Shown: in pieces, positions 5,301-28,800 of the stretch
How positions within the stretch are numbered: position 1 is the first letter of the stretch
How the letters are laid out: each line of letters opens with the position of its first letter
Source of the DNA: a virus
Virus record (IMG/VR): IMGVR_UViG_3300035179_000030
Location: 1-39,037 of that record
Strand: one strand, 5' to 3'
DNA length: 39,037 bases
Position numbers and translations under genes: made by a program
Notes under the pieces: model-generated
What the model saw: only the letters and a program-made list of their open reading frames with translations
Databases searched by the model: none
Told to the model about the DNA's origin: nothing

Positions 5301-7434
5301 GTAATTCCACAACCGGGTAAATCGTACAAAGACAATTGCAGATATTCCCAGGACTTCCACTTGGATCACCTGGATATTGCAAAGATTCACCATCAACCTC
5401 AAAATCCTCACTTAGAAGAATTGGGTCATCGCCATATCTACGACTTGCATCCATGTGTGATTGTCGAGATGCCGGAACAAAGGAGCACAGCCAACCCTTG
5501 TGATCAACATATTCAACCTGCCGAAATCCCTCCAAATTCCCCCAGTTCTCAACCTTCGCCGCTTCTGTCCTGGCAATGAGTTGCGCCTTCGCGGGCGTAA
5601 GCTCAAGCAATTTCTCCCGCAGATTCTTAGCTAATTCGCCTACCGTCCAATCCTCTTCGATCCCGAGTTGGATTTGGGCGGATATCTTTTCGAGCGTCGT
5701 CTTGTTCATCTCTGTTCCCGAATTGAGGATCATGTCATCGAGTTGGACGCGGATTTCCGGCGTTATCTGGAACCGGTCTTCCTCTTTCATAATCCGTTCC
5801 TCGGGCAGAATATAGAGTTTGCCCTGTGCAATCTGCATCCCCGCATCACCGGCCTCTTTGAGTGCTGTCATGTAATGGCCCAGGAATTTTTTGGCATACG
5901 CCTTAGCCTCGGCCTCAACGTCGAGGAGCCCGATAGCGCTCACCCCGGATACGTTTTCGGCCCTGGACGTCTTCGCCGCTACATCATCGGCCTGGGCCTC
6001 AAGATGATCCTTGAGACGACCAATGAACATCCGCTCTTTGCGCCCGACACGCTTGGCAAAGTCTTCCCACAGAACCTTCTGCCGTGTCTCGCCCTGCCAG
6101 AATGAGGGTTCACGCTTCGTCTGTGCATCCTTTGACAATCGCTTCTGTGCCTTGCCTGCATCCGGCTCCTGGCCCACTTCGACCATCGAGAGCGGCATAT
6201 AATATCTGTCCCCGCCTACGTACGGTTCGTCTCCGTACATATCAGCCCGGACCTGGTTCGGCGTGCGGATGCCGTTGGTGATAAGCGTCGCAGCAATCCG
6301 CGATTTCCGCTCCTCATCCTCCTGCAACACCCGAATGTCTGAGAAGTCGAATTCAAACCAATAGGCCTCATCAAAATGCGGAGCAAGGCAAAGCGTGAGT
6401 TTGTCGGCAATGGTGTTCAGTATCGGGATCTCGGTATCCTCCCAAAACTTCTTCTGCTGGACTTCCATGTTGGAATAGTTAGCGTATTCGAGTAAACCGA
6501 CGATCGAGGGTGGCACGCCGAGTGTCGCCAGCATCTCTTCACGATTCATCTTCCGCATCTCAGCATATTGCGCATCTTTGGGGTTGACGGCCGTCTGCTG
6601 ATACTTGATGCCGCCCCAAGTGAGGTCTACCTTGCCCCTGTTCTTCGGCCCCTTGTGACGGGCGTCCCACTCGCGAAGGAAGCGATCACTCTGTTCCTTG
6701 GTCAATACTTGATCGGTCCCAAACAGGCCATTAGGCGTCGCATCGTTGCCCATGAAGTTTTTGTTATAGGCAATGGCGTTGAATTCCAGGATAGCCGAGT
6801 TCTTGGCCGCCTCCATCGCCCCTAGTCCCCGGAAATAAGAGTCTGGGTTTACGGTCTTAAATTGGATGATTTCCGATGGGTCGAGTTTGACTTCTTTTCC
6901 GGTCTGGGATTTGAAGACATAGCCTTTGATGAACTTCTCCGGGTCAGCCTCAATCTCGACTTGCTCCGGCTTTAGCCACCAGATTTCGATAGGCGGATTC
7001 GAGCTTGAGATGGGTTGGTTCTTTCCCGTCCCGACCAGATTCCAATAGGCATTTCCGGGGATGAGCAAGTTGATAGCCGTAAGTTGAATCAGTTCCCGGT
7101 AGGACAGGAAGGGATTGGGAAGTTCGATGAGTTGGTTGACGGGTTCGCCAAGGACCTCCTCTTGCGTAACCTCGCCTCCTTTCTTAGCCTCGCGGTAGAC
7201 CCGGAGCACCGGCTTGGTCGCGGCCACGGCAATAGCCATCGCGCCTGCGTAGAGCCAAGGCAGTGCCTTGAACGCCTTGATGAAGTCCGCATAATTCGTG
7301 AGTTCTGTTGATTCTACTCGTCCCGCCCATGAGCCCGACTCGATCTCCGATGACATAAAACTGGCCATTTTCTGCTTCGACGCGTAACCCATCTTTTCCA
7401 GTCGCCGTTCAAGATATCGGTCAAGTAGTTTCAT
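5293..7434 (-). CDS. Portal protein fused to MuF-like minor head protein
   Basis: A 713-residue protein. The start MKLLDRYLERR (7434) is preferred over an upstream start because GGAG is well placed there and it sits directly after the terminase stop. Residues ~1-430 are an HK97-type portal: an entry region around ALPWLYAGAMAIA, NPFLSYRELIQLTAINLLIPGNAYW, DPSEIIQFK, and the GVPPSIVGLLEYANYSN block. The C-terminal ~120 residues are a Mu gpF-like domain: LIARTEAAKVENWG, DHKGWLCSFVPASRQSHMDA, a P-G-D-P motif and a C-N-C-L-C-T-I terminus. In most phages these are separate proteins. The portal forms the dodecameric DNA gate, while the MuF domain would sit inside or at the portal vertex, so a fusion would fix it at 12 copies. 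Confidence 0.9.
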   Translation of the reverse strand: MKLLDRYLERRLEKMGYASKQKMASFMSSEIESGSWAGRVESTELTNYADFIKAFKALPWLYAGAMAIAVAATKPVLRVYREAKKGGEVTQEEVLGEPVNQLIELPNPFLSYRELIQLTAINLLIPGNAYWNLVGTGKNQPISSSNPPIEIWWLKPEQVEIEADPEKFIKGYVFKSQTGKEVKLDPSEIIQFKTVNPDSYFRGLGAMEAAKNSAILEFNAIAYNKNFMGNDATPNGLFGTDQVLTKEQSDRFLREWDARHKGPKNRGKVDLTWGGIKYQQTAVNPKDAQYAEMRKMNREEMLATLGVPPSIVGLLEYANYSNMEVQQKKFWEDTEIPILNTIADKLTLCLAPHFDEAYWFEFDFSDIRVLQEDEERKSRIAATLITNGIRTPNQVRADMYGDEPYVGGDRYYMPLSMVEVGQEPDAGKAQKRLSKDAQTKREPSFWQGETRQKVLWEDFAKRVGRKERMFIGRLKDHLEAQADDVAAKTSRAENVSGVSAIGLLDVEAEAKAYAKKFLGHYMTALKEAGDAGMQIAQGKLYILPEERIMKEEDRFQITPEIRVQLDDMILNSGTEMNKTTLEKISAQIQLGIEEDWTVGELAKNLREKLLELTPAKAQLIARTEAAKVENWGNLEGFRQVEYVDHKGWLCSFVPASRQSHMDASRRYGDDPILLSEDFEVDGESLQYPGDPSGSPGNICNCLCTIYPVVELHE

Positions 7435-7435
7435 G

Positions 7436-8632
7436 TCATACTCCGAATGCCCAACCGACTTCACCTTGCCTGCAATGCGTATGAATCCCGTACCGGATGG
7501 CGTCCATCGCATGGTTCTTGAAGGCGACAGGTTCGGGTAGGTTATTTTCCAGCTTGTCCTTCTTCCAACGGTAAGATCCCTGTTCCGAAATGATATTCAT
7601 CGATCCCTGGACGACGTGAACTTTAACGCCCTTGAGATAATCAATCCCGGCGCGCACTGAGTCCGGCCCCTTCATCGCCGCCCTTACATTCAGCCCACAT
7701 TCGGACAACTCTTGAATCGACTTGGGTTCTGCCGAATCCCAATAGGACACGTCATCCAGGTTGACGCGGGGATCAGCCTTTATCTCGGCCGCCAGCGCCT
7801 GATTGGTCAGTCCCGTCTTGTAGATAATCTCCTCAAGCCAAAACTCGTTTGATTTGCGGTAGATTTTAATGAAGGCGGCCGGATCAACCGAATAGCCGAA
7901 GTCACCACCATAAATAATCTCGTCGAATCGGATATCGGGGAGAGGCACAACATCCCAATTGAAAATATGGCCTGTCGGAAGCGCCCACTCCCCTAAGCGA
8001 TAGATTTTGTAGTACGTCGGGTCATCCAACACATCGAGCCGCTTGAGATACTCCTCGCGCATTTCCTTAATCGGGTTATGTTCGACGGTCGAAACGTCGA
8101 CGAAGCTATCGGGATATTTCTTGTCAACGAACATAGCCTTGATCCACGGCGCCTGTGCCTCATCGGGGTTGAAGGACGCCATGATCTGTTGATAGTGCCC
8201 GGTAGCCTCACGCAGGATGAGATCAACTTGCATAAGGTCCGGTTTGGTAAACTCCGTGAGCTCCTCAATCCAGATCGAGGTTATGCCCTTCATGGACTTG
8301 ATCTTTTCAGGATCATCTAAGCCGTCGAATAGAATCTCGTTTGTACGGCCGGCCGGATTGATAAAGGTGATGACCCGGTCCGATTTGTTGTAGTCGTGGA
8401 CGATGTTATTCTCGGCTAGGATTTGACGGATGACCTTGACGCAGGATTCTTGGATGGTCTTGCGGACCTTGCGAAGGACGAGAAACCTGTGCCCCCCTTC
8501 GGTCATGCATCTGTAGAATATCTTGCGTCCGGCAAATTCAGACTTCCCCGAACCGCGCCCGCCGCATAGGATGAGGTATCGTTCCTTGCGGTCGAGGAGC
8601 GGAAAGAAGTGATCAGATATGAGTATTTCCAT
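7436..8632 (-). CDS. terL: Terminase large subunit (PBSX-type packaging ATPase and nuclease)
   Basis: A 398-residue motor protein that drives DNA into the prohead and cuts the concatemer. Walker A is GGRGSGKS (residues 24-31). Walker B with the catalytic Glu is SIWIEEL (about 119-125). The RNase H-like nuclease shows its acidic residues in order: GGDFGYSVDP (D244), YWDSAEPKS (D299) and NHAMDAIRYG (D377). Length and motif spacing match the PBSX/Terminase_3 type. It overlaps the small-subunit gene by 20 bases and is followed at once by the portal gene. The nuclease type does not by itself tell headful from cohesive-end packaging. Confidence 0.93.
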   Translation of the reverse strand: MEILISDHFFPLLDRKERYLILCGGRGSGKSEFAGRKIFYRCMTEGGHRFLVLRKVRKTIQESCVKVIRQILAENNIVHDYNKSDRVITFINPAGRTNEILFDGLDDPEKIKSMKGITSIWIEELTEFTKPDLMQVDLILREATGHYQQIMASFNPDEAQAPWIKAMFVDKKYPDSFVDVSTVEHNPIKEMREEYLKRLDVLDDPTYYKIYRLGEWALPTGHIFNWDVVPLPDIRFDEIIYGGDFGYSVDPAAFIKIYRKSNEFWLEEIIYKTGLTNQALAAEIKADPRVNLDDVSYWDSAEPKSIQELSECGLNVRAAMKGPDSVRAGIDYLKGVKVHVVQGSMNIISEQGSYRWKKDKLENNLPEPVAFKNHAMDAIRYGIHTHCRQGEVGWAFGV

Positions 8633-13987: not shown

Positions 13988-14185
13988 TTATTCGTATCTT
14001 GCCAAGTCATTGAATAGGTCAGCGATATCCCGCGCCGTTACTTTATCCGGCGCATAAGCGATGGTTGATCCGTCTATGTCTACAATGCGATACCAATTTG
14101 CCAAGAATAATTTCCTCTCCTGCGTAGTCGTTTCTATGGTCGCTACTTTCTCGATGGTCACTTCGCTCAGCTCGGGCCCTCTCAT
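13988..14185 (-). CDS. Small protein, 65 aa
   Basis: The gene starts in the stop of the upstream paralogue (ATGA overlap). The sequence MRGPELSEVTIEKVATIET leads into strands and a C-terminal helix (KVTARDIADLFNDLARYE). The short 'YRIVDIDGSTIAYAPD' stretch is beta-like. No cysteine cluster or membrane segment is seen, and no family is recognised. Confidence 0.6.
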   Translation of the reverse strand: MRGPELSEVTIEKVATIETTTQERKLFLANWYRIVDIDGSTIAYAPDKVTARDIADLFNDLARYE

Positions 14186-14415
14186 TTTCCCTTCTCCCCG
14201 AAGTCGCGGATTTCCATGGCGATCCGCGCAAAGATATCAACCCAGTCCGGGTGAGTATCAAATTTTCTTAGTCGCCCTTGCCATTCTCCCATCTTCTCGA
14301 TGAGGCGGCGGATGGCTTGACATTCCGGGCAATGCCCACCAAGGTGGAATGGGTGAACACAATCCATGAAATCATTTAAGTGCTCAATCAAATCCTTCTC
14401 GCTCGGCTCAGTCAT
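14182..14415 (-). CDS. Small Cys/His protein, paralogue A, 77 aa
   Basis: The start MTEPSEKDLIEHLN at 14415 has AAGGAGG upstream; a longer frame would run antisense-like sequence through the neighbouring gene. Residues 1-35 are closely related to the next gene upstream: both read LIEHLNDFMDCVHPF, then C-P-E-C-QAIRRLI and a C-terminal EIRDFG. The D-C-x-H … C-P-E-C pattern looks like a small zinc knuckle. The two genes are a tandem duplication that has since diverged in the middle. Confidence 0.7.
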   Translation of the reverse strand: MTEPSEKDLIEHLNDFMDCVHPFHLGGHCPECQAIRRLIEKMGEWQGRLRKFDTHPDWVDIFARIAMEIRDFGEKGK

Positions 14416-14677
14416 CGGGGGCCTCCTTCCCGAAGTCGCGGATTTCCCTTGCCAGCTCTTCCAATTCCAGCAATCGTTTGTTCTCGTCTTTCCCAAAGCC
14501 CATAATTTGATTAGCCCGTTTCTTCCACTCCCCCTGCTCCACGATGAGGCGGCGGATGGCTTGACATTCTGGGCAATAGCCGCAAATATCCCGATAGCTT
14601 CCAAGGCGAAATGGATGAACACAATCCATAAAGTCGTTTAGGTGCTCGATCAGTTCCTTCTCGCTCGGGTCAGTCAT
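14408..14677 (-). CDS. Small Cys/His protein, paralogue B, 89 aa
   Basis: Sister gene of 14182-14415, starting MTDPSEKELIEHLN. It carries an extra short loop (SYRDICG) before C-P-E-C-QAIRRLI and a longer helical C-terminus (KRLLELEELAREIRDFG). The stop overlaps the next start by 8 bases in the sequence ATGACTGA. It overlaps the preceding gene as ATGA. Retention of both copies suggests related but distinct partners. Confidence 0.7.
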   Translation of the reverse strand: MTDPSEKELIEHLNDFMDCVHPFRLGSYRDICGYCPECQAIRRLIVEQGEWKKRANQIMGFGKDENKRLLELEELAREIRDFGKEAPDD

Positions 14678-16142: not shown

Positions 16143-16366
16143 CCTTCTTCTCCAGGGAGACGATCTCCCCCCGCCTCAGCCTTGTAGTCGTGCACCTTGA
16201 ACTTCCGCGTCCTTCGTCGTCTATCCTGTTCTGCCTCTAGCTTCACCCTCTCCCCCGCCTCATGCCATAGTCGTTTACATCGCTGACCCTCGGGACATGC
16301 GCAGAACACGGCGGTATTATGTTTGAGGTACATACCCTCACTGTGACATTCACAATCGGGGTTCAT
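16139..16366 (-). CDS. Small Cys-rich, basic protein, 75 aa
   Basis: The N-terminus MNPDCECHSEGMYLKHN and FCACPEGQRCKRLWHE hold six cysteines and three histidines, followed by a long charged helix (ERVKLEAEQDRRRRTRKFK). It overlaps the end of the replication initiator by 17 bases, with AAGGAT as ribosome site. It might be a replication accessory such as a helicase-loader partner, but only position supports that. Confidence 0.6.
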   Translation of the reverse strand: MNPDCECHSEGMYLKHNTAVFCACPEGQRCKRLWHEAGERVKLEAEQDRRRRTRKFKVHDYKAEAGGDRLPGEEG

Positions 16367-17060
16367 ATTTGAAATCCTTGTAGGTCATGTATCGCTCTTT
16401 ATTCAGGAACGTCATGACATGAAGCGGCTGCTGCTTAAAGTTCTCGTTGAGTTCCTTGTGTTTGAGGAACCCCAGGTATCCGGCGAACCCGGCTTTGAGC
16501 TCGTCCAGGTAGCCGCCCTTGACCAACTCAGCAAACCGCTGGCCGCACGCCTTTTTGTGGAATCTTCCTTCTCTTGGGTAAGCTGTCCAGAATTCTTCAA
16601 AGAGCCGGCCGGTATTGTCGGCCTTTATATCTTTCGTATCGTTTCGTATCGTATCGTTTCGTATCGTATCAGAAGGGGCCGGTTTAGCGGCCATCGTGTC
16701 CGCTTTATCGGCCATCATGGCCGCATTGATCCTCCTTCGATGCCTTTCCGAGGCGATATATTTCTCAAATGAGACGAGGCGAAGGGTCCCATCATCCAGG
16801 CGTTCAAATTTACCAACCTCGATACAACGTTCAATCGTCCTCTCAAGTAATCTCTTATCAAGGCAAAGGAATCCGGCTAGTTGTTCTAGGCGATAGGGCA
16901 CGCCAACATTGGCGCGAATATATCCTTCATCCTTTTGGGCCAATGCCATGAGATCGATGAAAATCCCGCGCTCCGGTGGCGAGAGTTCAATTCGGGTAGA
17001 ACCGAAAAGCCATTTGTCTATCCAGAACGGAAACCAATTGGGGGCGATTTTATTTCTCAT
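16350..17060 (-). CDS. Replication initiator (O-like / replisome organiser)
   Basis: A 236-residue protein. Residues 1-105 form a winged-helix domain of the type at the N-terminus of phage replisome organisers (WFPFWIDKWLFGSTRIELSP, then GIFIDLMALAQKDEGYI and a LAGFLCLDKRLLERTIERC recognition region). A disordered linker (~110-150) contains a DTIRN repeat encoded by the iterons. Residues ~150-225 carry the FEEFWTAYPREGRFHKKAC … PLHVMTFLNKERYM block seen in phage replication proteins that load the helicase. The start has AGGAG upstream. It should bind the origin and recruit the host DnaB-type helicase. Confidence 0.82.
   Translation of the reverse strand: MRNKIAPNWFPFWIDKWLFGSTRIELSPPERGIFIDLMALAQKDEGYIRANVGVPYRLEQLAGFLCLDKRLLERTIERCIEVGKFERLDDGTLRLVSFEKYIASERHRRRINAAMMADKADTMAAKPAPSDTIRNDTIRNDTKDIKADNTGRLFEEFWTAYPREGRFHKKACGQRFAELVKGGYLDELKAGFAGYLGFLKHKELNENFKQQPLHVMTFLNKERYMTYKDFKYEPRL
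16632..16670. repeat. 15-bp tandem iterons inside the initiator gene (candidate origin)
   Basis: The 15-mer GTTTCGTATCGTATC occurs twice without a gap (16641-16655 and 16656-16670) and is preceded by a partial copy (16632-16640). It encodes the repeated DTIRN in the linker of the initiator. In lambdoid phages the origin iterons lie at the same place, inside the O gene between the DNA-binding and helicase-loading parts. Confidence 0.65.
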
Positions 17061-17247
17061 GTGCTCCTATTTGGGGCGGGGGTGGGGACGGACGCCATTC
17101 TAATTCCGGGCTGCCATCCGTCCCTATTTTATTATCCCGGCTTCGGACACCCCCATAGAGAAAGGAGCCGGCGGGGCGGGTAAGAAAGGAGGGCAAAGTC
17201 CCGCCCCACGGACTAACCGGCCGGCTCACTGTGTTCACTTTTTTCAT
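17050..17247 (-). CDS. Doubtful 65-aa frame across structured element
   Basis: An open frame starts at ATG 17247, overlaps the previous stop as ATGA and ends 11 bases inside the initiator gene. Against it: no ribosome site, a product without recognisable fold (runs of Pro and Gly, PPPPQIG end), and two long hairpins that fill the same DNA. I regard it as unlikely and list it only because the junctions fit the local gene packing. Confidence 0.2.
   Translation of the reverse strand: MKKVNTVSRPVSPWGGTLPSFLTRPAGSFLYGGVRSRDNKIGTDGSPELEWRPSPPPPQIGAHEK
17085..17227 (-). ncRNA. Structured non-coding element with two long hairpins
   Basis: Hairpin 1: 17085-17092 pairs with 17117-17124 (GGGACGGA/TCCGTCCC, 8 bp, 24-base loop). 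Hairpin 2: an outer stem 17165-17172 with 17220-17227 (GAGCCGGC/GCCGGCTC) stacks on an inner stem 17173-17180 with 17200-17207 (GGGGCGGG/CCCGCCCC). On one side, 17208-17219 is a 12-base bulge able to form its own CGG/CCG mini-hairpin. The inner loop contains AGGAGGG, whose complement on the transcribed strand is anti-Shine-Dalgarno-like. It sits directly upstream of the replication initiator. An RNA regulator, a 5' leader or part of the replication origin are all possible. Confidence 0.55.
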
Positions 17248-17435
17248 GCTTCTAGGATTTTCACCTTCACGATTTTGTGGGTTCCGCGCCTTCTGGCTAA
17301 TCGAAAATCACCGGCTATTTGATACCACCATTCCAAAACTTCCTTTCTTGTTTCCCTTACACTACCGTTTATAATCCAAGGATTTCTTCCACAAAAAGAT
17401 TTCATTGCCCAGGCATCATATTTTGGTTTGCTCAT
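17244..17435 (-). CDS. Small basic protein, 63 aa
   Basis: The start MSKPKYDAWAMKSF at 17435 follows AAAGGAG. It overlaps the upstream stop by one base (TGATG). The protein is basic and aromatic, with a RETRKEVLEWWYQIAGDF helix and a TrpTrp pair, ending in strands (GTHKIVKVKILEA). It resembles small phage proteins made near replication genes. No motif gives a function. Confidence 0.65.
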   Translation of the reverse strand: MSKPKYDAWAMKSFCGRNPWIINGSVRETRKEVLEWWYQIAGDFRLARRRGTHKIVKVKILEA

Positions 17436-17602
17436 CACACTCTCCTTTCTGGCCTCATCCTTTTTGCCTCAACCATGCGCACGGGCGGTTTGTCCACGTC
17501 GCGTTCATCACCACAACCCATGCAGACGGCCGTATTGTCCCACCGGACCCGGTGGACCGTGATCCCCCGGCACTTCTCGCAAAACAGCATGGCTTCAGGC
17601 AT
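17435..17602 (-). CDS. Zinc-ribbon protein, 55 aa
   Basis: The start MPEAMLFCEKCRG at 17602 overlaps the end of the coiled-coil gene by 8 bases. CEKC (residues 8-11) and CMGC (27-30) form a classic zinc ribbon around TVHRVRWDN. The tail is basic (AKRMRPERRV). Likely nucleic-acid binding. It accompanies the recombination genes. Confidence 0.65.
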   Translation of the reverse strand: MPEAMLFCEKCRGITVHRVRWDNTAVCMGCGDERDVDKPPVRMVEAKRMRPERRV

Positions 17603-25894: not shown

Positions 25895-28800
25895 CAAACC
25901 TCCCAACTCAGGTAGGACATGTTCTTCACCGCGACCACCTCGGCCTGAGCATTCTGGAAATCCTTGGTTATTGCCAGAACAATAAACGCCTGGGTATCAA
26001 ATATCGTAACTACCGTGCCGTCACTCATTTCAACCGCATAGCTCACGATGATTTTATCTGTCGGATTGAGTAGGAGTCCGCGCGCCGGGAGTACCGCTCG
26101 TATCATTGGTAGTGGGTAGTTCAACATATTGCCGTAGGCGTTAGCAACGGCATTTCCCTGGTAATCGGATTTAACCGAAGTCTCAACCGACAGTGTGCGC
26201 TGTTCCCCATGCTCCCACTGTGCCCGGTTGAGATTAGGATCGGCGGTTGTGTCGTTTACGCAGACTTCCCACTCGCCTGTAGTGGGGTCCTGATCCTTCT
26301 TGATTTCGATGTATTTATAAATCTGATCCGTATCCTCCCAGGAATTGAAAGCCAGGAAATCGGGATTCCGAAACTCAAGTTCATTCCCGGCCAGCGTGGA
26401 TACTAGCGCCCGCGCGAACCACTCGCCCTCGCAACTTTGGAATATCTGGAATGCATTAGATCGCTTCCACTTGTTTAGAAGCTCACGAAAGTCCACGTCG
26501 TCGGTAATATACTCACGCGCCTCGATAGTCCGCTTGTCATAGAGTTCAAGAAAACTCTTAAGGTTGATCTTGCTCTCCGGGATGCCGTTCACCCGCTTGA
26601 GGAAGAAGTAAAGGAAATGGGCGATAGAATAGGCATAGTTGGTTTCCTCGAAATCAACTTTAAGCCCCTTGGCATCGCATGTAATGACCGATGTTCCAGG
26701 ATTGCTGACCATTGTAAAAGTGCCAGCGTTCAAGTCCTGTGTATAATGAGTTGTTATAGTTTGGAGTACCCCGTCCTTATACACATGGGTAAGCTCATAT
26801 TGGGGATAGGTCACGCCGCCGAATACGGTCTGTGTAACCTTGTAGACGTAGGTTGCCGTATTGCAACACGGCGGGGTGATATTCTCGACGTTCCCGAGCA
26901 GGATCGGCACCCCTCGATTCTTCCAGGCGTCTTCGCAATTCGGGTAAGTCGTTGAATCGAAACGGGCTATGTCCCCACAGTTATTGATAAGCGAAACGCG
27001 TATGTCTTTCGTGTCCACCTGGAACCCAACCATTGTCCACTCGGGCCGTCGCGATTGGCCGAAGAAGATCGGGACATATTCATCATAATCAAAATCGGTC
27101 TCCCCGATGCGAAACTCCATCGCCTTGTTTGACCAGATATAGGTGTCTTTTTTCTGCCACCAGAAACCGTCATTGGCAAAACCGACAGTACCGAACGACA
27201 CCTGCTCCTCCGGCTCATGCCAGGTGCCGACGGACATACTGAGCGAAGGAATAGAATCATAGCGCAGAAACGGATCGTAGAACTTCGGTTCATAGATTCG
27301 TTTCCATTCGATGTAATCAACATAATAGATTTGGTCAACGACGTTGGTCGTGAGTGTTATCCTATAGGCCGAATAACTCGCATGCGCCTGGAACCTGAGT
27401 TCGTATTCCAGCCAATCCGTAGATGCCGGGAGGGTGATGCTTCCCGAAGCATTCCAATTCCCCTCATCGTCGAGGTAGACATTCGAGCCGGAATTCTTGA
27501 TTTGGAGATAGAGATGGCCTTCGGTATCCGACCCGGCATACTTGAACCGCACGCGCTGCCAGGCCGACGGTCGCGTCACGATGTCCTGGTAGATGGCGGC
27601 CGTGCCACTCCCGGCACTGAGTTTCGCCGAGTATGCGGAATCGATATCATAGACAGACGTTGCTTCCCGCGCCAGGGAGCCGGTGCCCGTCGTTGATTTC
27701 GTCCAATTCTTTAGCGTCGCCGCGTCACTCCAGAGATCGACCTTGCCATCAACGAGAATCTCCGTCTCCCGCGCCAGCGTCACCCCGGTATTCGAGATGC
27801 CCTTCCAAAAATAGGCCATGAAGCAATATTTCTTCGGCGTCCCCGTCGATGGGATATCCGCATCCGCCGTCTTGACATAGAGACGGCTCGTGGTCAGGTC
27901 ATAAAAGAACGTGCTCACCGTCGCCTGGACTTCGGCTACCGTGAATTTCTCCGTATAGGCCGCGCCATTAACAACGACCCGCGTGACTTCGCCATCCGTG
28001 AAGGACAAATAATAGGCACCGCTACCGGCAGATGTCCACGTCTCGCTTTCGAGTTTCCGGGCCAATTCCCAATCGAGGATGATGTTCTTTCCGATATCCG
28101 ACGTGAGAAGTTTCGTTATCGGCGGAACGACCGGACCGGGCGGGGGGGCCGGGGGATTTCCGCCGCGTAGGGGGTGCGGGTAGGTATAAGGCATGTAGCC
28201 GGGGGGTGCTGAATTCTTGTAGTCATAATAGGCGTCCTGAAGTCCGGTCAGAGAATTGACCAGCGCCGAACCCGTGTGCTGATCCGTAATTGTCTCATTA
28301 TTCTGGAATGTCCCGACGACGTTCCTTAGCCACAGGATGCCAGTTGTGCCGGCGTCGGTTTGCTTGGTCAGATAGCCGTAGGCTCCCGATGTGCCGCCTG
28401 TAACCTTATCATTGAGTGTGAAATTTGCAGTCTGTGTATCGAACGGCAACTGTCCCGATAATCTGTTTTCATCGTAGAAGGAACTTGTTCCATACTCGGT
28501 AATACTGACCGCTGTCCCGTCATAGGTATTGCCCCAAGCCCAATAATCACGAGGTTGCCAATCAATATAATAATCTGCCGGGTAGGTATAGGCGGGCGCA
28601 GTGTGTGCAGTAATATCCGTGCTATTGATACGGACGCACATCGTCGGATTGCTGTTCCCCCAGGAATGGAACTTGTTGTTCCAGAGGGCAGCATGGCCGC
28701 CCCGGATGGCACTCCCCGCACAAGCGTTCGGATAGAAGGTCGAAAGGTTCACCGTGCTCAGGGTGATGTCGTTACCGTAATCCTCAACATGGAGCGTGGA

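Follow-up and report, generated by a model that had tools for sequence, protein, structure and literature searches.

Does the gap in front of the replication-initiator gene of this phage hold a functional RNA, part of the replication origin, or a small protein-coding gene? The gap is 183 nt long and separates a 64-aa ORF from the initiator gene in the window (the whole 39,037-nt stretch of viral DNA analyzed here). Both genes lie on the minus strand, as do all genes around the gap, so the minus strand is the RNA to read and a plus-strand reading would be antisense. The features of the locus are as follows:

17061–17243, minus: intercistronic gap with the structured element, flanked by the minus-strand ORFs 17244–17438 and 16350–17060
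16350–17060, minus: replication initiator/replisome organizer, 236 aa (phrog_270, E = 1.2e-9; phrog_9327, E = 1.3e-8)
17244–17438, minus: small ORF upstream of the gap, 64 aa, without a family in Pfam and PHROG searches
17064–17068, minus: AGGAG, the Shine-Dalgarno sequence of the initiator gene (start ATG at 17060–17058)
17050–17247, minus: 65-aa open frame across the gap, probably no gene; its ATGA start lies on the preceding stop
17085–17124, minus: element 2 (hairpin A), GGGACGGA (17085–17092) paired with TCCGTCCC (17117–17124), 8 bp, perfect
17165–17227, minus: element 1 (hairpin B), from stem positions and RNAfold
17183–17192, minus: anti-Shine-Dalgarno 10-mer CCUCCUUUCU in the loop of element 1, the longest match to the 16S 3′ tail
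16634–16724, no strand assigned: direct repeats of iteron type within the initiator gene; the window as a whole has just four repeat rows, these included

Structure and coding content of the gap

The gap sits directly upstream of the Shine-Dalgarno sequence (SD) of the initiator. The initial annotation had described two perfect-stem hairpins here, the second with two stacked 8-bp stems and a bulged 12-base arm; all of these are present by stem position, and RNAfold returns the same hairpins on both strands. Hairpin A lies ∼25 nt upstream of the initiator AUG, and its 13-nt arms pair at 85%. In hairpin B, the outer stem (GAGCCGGC, 17165–17172, with GCCGGCTC, 17220–17227; 8 bp) carries the inner stem stacked upon it (GGGGCGGG, 17173–17180, with CCCGCCCC, 17200–17207; 8 bp), which closes a loop of 19 nt (17181–17199); the bulged arm (17208–17219, CGG-ACTAA-CCG) contributes 3 bp. 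On the minus strand, element 1 reads GAGCCGGC-CGG-UUAGU-CCG-U-GGGGCGGG-ACUUUGCCCUCCUUUCUUA-CCCGCCCC-GCCGGCUC. Neither the CTTTCTCTATG after the outer stem of element 1 nor the CACCCCCGCCCC after element 2 is a T run, and we therefore rejected an intrinsic terminator by sequence for these GC stems. The sole minus-strand terminator-like row, 17207–17190, matches weakly and falls within the inner stem and loop of element 1.

It is highly improbable that the gap encodes a 65-aa protein and that the stems are incidental. The frame is coupled to the previous stop through its ATGA and overlaps the initiator start, and the corresponding gap of the closest sister locus (L002; see below) has an ATGA-coupled frame too. 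That frame, however, has 31 codons and is unlike the 65-aa frame, which is low-complexity PSPPPP-type sequence and has no match in Pfam or PHROG. The initial annotation had judged the frame across the stems to look non-protein, and homologs keeping the 65-aa frame, named at the time as the finding that would speak against an RNA, were not seen.

Folding energies were compared with those of shuffled sequences. The exact gap (17061–17243, minus strand) has a minimum free energy of −81.4 (z = −3.36), reached by none of 500 dinucleotide shuffles. The 143-nt interval first noted gives −64.3 kcal/mol on the minus strand (z = −1.85; six of 200 shuffles as good) and −56.8 kcal/mol on the plus strand (z = −1.13; 24 of 200). 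A set of three perfect 8-bp stems packed into 70 nt arises in 71 of 3000 shuffles, and 160-nt sliding frames that cut the elements are unremarkable in the window (best rank, 118 of 648). We regard the folding evidence from the window by itself as moderate, and the overall case otherwise rests on relatives. A chance structure in a GC-rich, C-skewed stretch would account for the low z-scores of the noted interval and for the shuffles with three such stems; it is nevertheless quite improbable given the exact gap, which no shuffle equals, and the four relatives that are strongly structured too. Elsewhere in the window, 1921–2140 and 26161–26320 (minus) are among the strongest minus-strand local folding signals (z from about −3.4 to −4.2), and 2024–2051 is a 12-bp hairpin.

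The loop of element 1 contains CCUCCUUUCU, an exact match to the usual 3′ tail of bacterial 16S rRNA. The 10-mer is predicted to be unpaired with a probability of 0.97–1.0 in the ensemble, and a match to the tail of this length occurs in two of 1000 shuffles, a comparison made after the match had been noticed. Duplexes between loop and SD have a mean energy of −11.2 kcal/mol in cis and −11.1 kcal/mol for swapped elements, so pairing of the loop specifically with its own SD is unsupported; the anti-SD loop may act in trans.

Searches with the region itself found no phage match by blastn, no further copies within the 39-kb record, and no credible match in Rfam 15 at gathering or permissive thresholds. 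Beside the window element we found no −10/−35 pair of a minus-strand promoter.

Replication origin and related initiator loci

Within the 39-kb window, tandem repeats are clearest inside the initiator gene: 2.5 copies of TCGTATCGTTTCGTA (16634–16670) and 2.3 copies of a 21-bp unit (16677–16724). Similar arrays are present in the corresponding linker of the L002 and L020 initiators, and there are no tandem direct repeats in 17061–17243. Iteron origins inside initiator genes are familiar from lambda O and Gram-positive replisome organizers. The window initiator, which matches replication-initiation PHROGs and has its tandem repeats in a linker, resembles them, a likeness that concerns 16634–16724 and not the hairpins; judged by these repeats, the replication origin is likely located there. 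The initial annotation had left open that the hairpins are part of the origin and had proposed a GC-skew switch as its sign, but none is found at the gap. With no switch there and the clearest repeats inside the initiator gene, the hairpins are unlikely to be the origin. That they serve as a single-strand initiation site or initiator-binding site is hardly credible: they do adjoin the initiator gene, but the iteron-like repeats lie within that gene instead, and several relatives (L010, L013, L015, L033, and others) have no comparable long stem before the initiator. A separate tandem duplication is visible at 14182–14677 (minus), where two similar small ORFs (MTEPSEKDLIEHLNDFMDC... and MTDPSEKELIEHLNDFMDC...) stand in a row.

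Initiator searches of viral contigs and genomes gave ∼15 related loci. A real gap directly upstream of the homologous initiator was found in four, and all four gaps hold long-stem elements with unrelated stem sequences: L002 (stem GGGGCCAGCUGACA/UGUCGGCUGGCCCC, z = −2.4), L012 (two elements, z = −5.5), L020 (two elements, z = −4.4), and L031 (z = −3.1). The relatives were too distant to yield any covariation for the window's own element. At 381–569, L013 also carries an inverted repeat, possibly an assembly artifact, in which 91 bp pair perfectly around a 7-nt loop.

The closest sister is L002, with an initiator 60% identical to that of the window. Its gap also has CCCUCCUUU inside the stem and CCUUUCU after it, and keeps the architecture of the window element without alignable sequence. 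The two gaps are not significantly similar (shared 9-mer, 91 of 1000 shuffles; local alignment, 277 of 2000), and homology of the two elements is therefore not established. A joint pattern of the window and L002 matches 42 stretches in viral contigs, near a rough chance estimate; among these matches a strong flanking stem is found only in L002-type records (two contigs) and the window, which is not independent evidence since the pattern was built from those two. Between the initiators themselves (16350–17060 in the window, 4971–5693 in L002), the C-terminal part (approximately residues 145–236) is nearly identical and the N-terminal domain far more divergent, a distribution that suggests module exchange. 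L002 further contains 16.7 copies of a 15-bp unit, AGCCAACCTCGGGGG, at 7422–7672.

Across relatives, stem sequence is thus unconserved and stem strength kept. Generic mRNA hairpins, which would protect 3′ ends or serve processing between cistrons in the manner of REP elements, with no specific role for the loop, would show this pattern, and GC-rich stems in a tight operon fit them as well. We nonetheless find this explanation doubtful, as it leaves unexplained both the exact unpaired anti-SD 10-mer and the conserved cores found in relatives, which are described next.

A C-rich pseudoknot RNA family in phages and Aminicenantes

One and the same internal core, UUCCCAUCAnnAACCCCCYUUUUGCUGA, is enclosed by unrelated, perfectly paired outer stems in the gaps of L012 and L020. 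Scanning by pattern revealed this core in more phage contigs: L063, L099, L040/L078, and L077, the last with three copies. In L063, L040, and all three copies of L077, a gene begins a few dozen bases downstream of it. L077 has a series of paralogous genes (MAFKKFI...) on its minus strand (approximately 7096–8426 in reverse-complement numbering), and the core stands before three of these genes. The core also occurs in Aminicenantes chromosomes; in a sample of 297 genomes from their phylum, it was detected in 18. The members are as follows:

Chromosomes of the Aminicenantes class: L109, L110, L116, L117, L119–L135, L166–L185
Phages: L012, L020, L040, L063, L077, L099

Model R1 matches 89 of the 142 genomes of the Aminicenantes class, with one to eight copies each, and none of 155 genomes in the class of the other candidate host, a deltaproteobacterial bin, a run made without a positive control. 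The family has no match in Rfam 15. A −10 box scoring at least 5/6 precedes the first aligned base by 4–6 nt in 29 of 37 chromosomal copies, and the flanking genes vary in kind and direction; by these signs, the chromosomal copies look like stand-alone genes. Two helices, S1 and S2, cross to form a pseudoknot. Changes on both sides affect four of eight pairs in S1 and one of eight in S2, with all cells paired and a covariation score that none of 500 shuffles reached. In a 27-copy set including more divergent copies, 96.4% of cells pair, 35 cells have changed on both sides, and again none of 500 shuffles scored as high. Both models match L012, L020, L063, L077 (two copies), and L099 with E < 0.004, and some phage members, L012 and L063 among them, align to no more than the core part of the model.

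In the conserved core, CAU is followed by a short spacer and CCCCCC-UUUU, an order complementary to that of a start site (SD, spacer, AUG). Counting a CAU 0–12 nt upstream of a C-run that ends in UUU, we find it in 26 of 27 chromosomal and seven of eight phage copies, against shuffled means of 9.7 and 2.7, respectively. We infer that the family may act in trans as a C-rich RNA blocking translation start sites, the mode shown for sX13 (PMC3771888). We also considered the chromosomal RNA as an antisense ORF, its reverse complement resembling SD plus ATG, and rejected this, because the frames close after two to four codons in L171, L178, and L181 and the promoter is on the sense side instead.

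The window element is not a member of the C-rich pseudoknot RNA family by these tests. R1 scores 7.2 bits (E = 6.3) at 17167–17237 (minus), R2 has no match there, the conserved core UUCCCAUCAUCAACCCCCCUUUUGCUGAC is absent from the element, and the loop ACUUUGCCCUCCUUUCUUA contains no CAU. The element also lacks the S1 helix crossing S2 and the directly upstream −10 box of the chromosomal form, and no S1-like segment is seen upstream of its outer stem. The sister L002 gives a borderline R1 score (17.5 bits, E = 0.075) at exactly the corresponding place. In L012 and L020 the model matches one of the two gap elements, so structures outside the family sit beside members in the same gap.

The window element could still be a fast-diverged phage version of the family that acts within the phage transcript or is released from it and pairs in trans with G-rich ribosome-binding sites. 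It has the architecture (a long outer stem, an unpaired pyrimidine core, and a pyrimidine-rich tail) and the genomic place of the true members in L012 and L020, and the borderline score of L002 falls at exactly this place. This origin is unlikely, however, in view of the low R1 score, the silence of R2, the missing CAU that nearly all copies keep before the C-run, and the lack of both S1 helix and promoter. A speculative extension, which we also think unlikely, is that the gap before the initiator in this phage family would serve viruses as a docking site for relatives of a bacterial regulatory RNA that is C-rich, pseudoknotted, and multi-copy; the window element would be a diverged version whose loop mimics the 16S anti-SD tail, and the phage might use this host-type regulatory RNA to time its own replication or to damp the translation of other mRNAs.

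A candidate leader RNA and its known counterparts

Our tentative preference, at a probability of about 0.4, is that the window element is an intercistronic leader RNA that would control initiator translation through its exposed anti-SD loop. The leader would be part of an early polycistronic mRNA from the minus strand, directly upstream of the initiator gene. Its two GC-rich hairpins would fold as RNA, element 1 presenting an unpaired pyrimidine loop with CCUCCUUUCU. The initiator start site might in this way be isolated from the upstream cistron, so that its translation would be lowered or timed, and the anti-SD loop would compete for SD-type sequences. The computed basis of this leader comprises the stems, the strand, the position, the unpaired anti-SD, and the strong structures that recur at the same place in relatives; it would further require that the region be transcribed as predicted, that loop and SD pair, and that the initiator be the gene controlled.

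Several observations favor the leader: no shuffle folds as well as the exact gap, all four relatives with a gap are structured there, the anti-SD 10-mer in the loop is predicted to be unpaired, one gap element in each of L012 and L020 is a family member with a C-rich, anti-SD-like core, this core stands shortly before gene starts in other phage contigs (L063, L077, L040), and the window gap is free of an origin signature, the iteron-like repeats lying elsewhere. Against it stand the only moderately unusual folding of the window by itself, the lack of sequence homology or covariation for the window's own element, the lack of a cis-specific energy advantage for sequestering its own SD, and the lack of a minus-strand promoter beside it. 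The proposal of a new phage RNA or initiator leader, first made in the initial annotation, is thus favored in its general form by a gap at the SD, by the structure of the exact gap, and by four structured relatives, two of them carrying family members; the covariation check suggested along with it gave nothing for the window's own element.

If the leader reading is true, RNA would control the initiator of a temperate phage that infects uncultured bacteria, via an anti-SD loop. Independent of the window, the RNA family is multi-copy, promoter-driven, and pseudoknotted with compensatory changes; within one uncultured class, most of the genomes sampled have it, and phages carry it ahead of replication genes and others. 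It is absent from Rfam 15, is a larger result than the window element, and offers a concrete model for testing how host and phage share regulatory RNA.

Known systems that place structured RNA between early genes include the translational leaders and operator hairpins of phages and the lambda-type tR1 that precedes the initiator. The window resembles them in having its structured RNA just upstream of a replication initiator and differs in that its stems have no T run and no known operator protein.

sX13 of Xanthomonas and RsaA of S. aureus are reported to repress translation via C-rich unpaired motifs acting on G-rich ribosome-binding sites (PMC3771888; PMC3961350). Stable stems in sX13, RsaA, and the 6C RNA of Actinobacteria expose C-rich unpaired motifs complementary to such sites, and the window element likewise carries an unpaired C-rich motif complementary to the SD, CCUCCUUUCU. 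In contrast to these RNAs, it has a single anti-SD loop, sits inside an operon without a promoter of its own having been found, and has neither a sequence relation to them nor an Rfam match.

The window element differs from the C-rich pseudoknot RNA in that it lacks UUCCCAUCAUCAACCCCCCUUUUGCUGAC, has no CAU before the C-run, and does not score significantly with the model. Its likeness is to the phage members in L012 and L020, which occupy the same gap before homologous initiators and, like the window element, have an unpaired pyrimidine core enclosed by a long outer stem.
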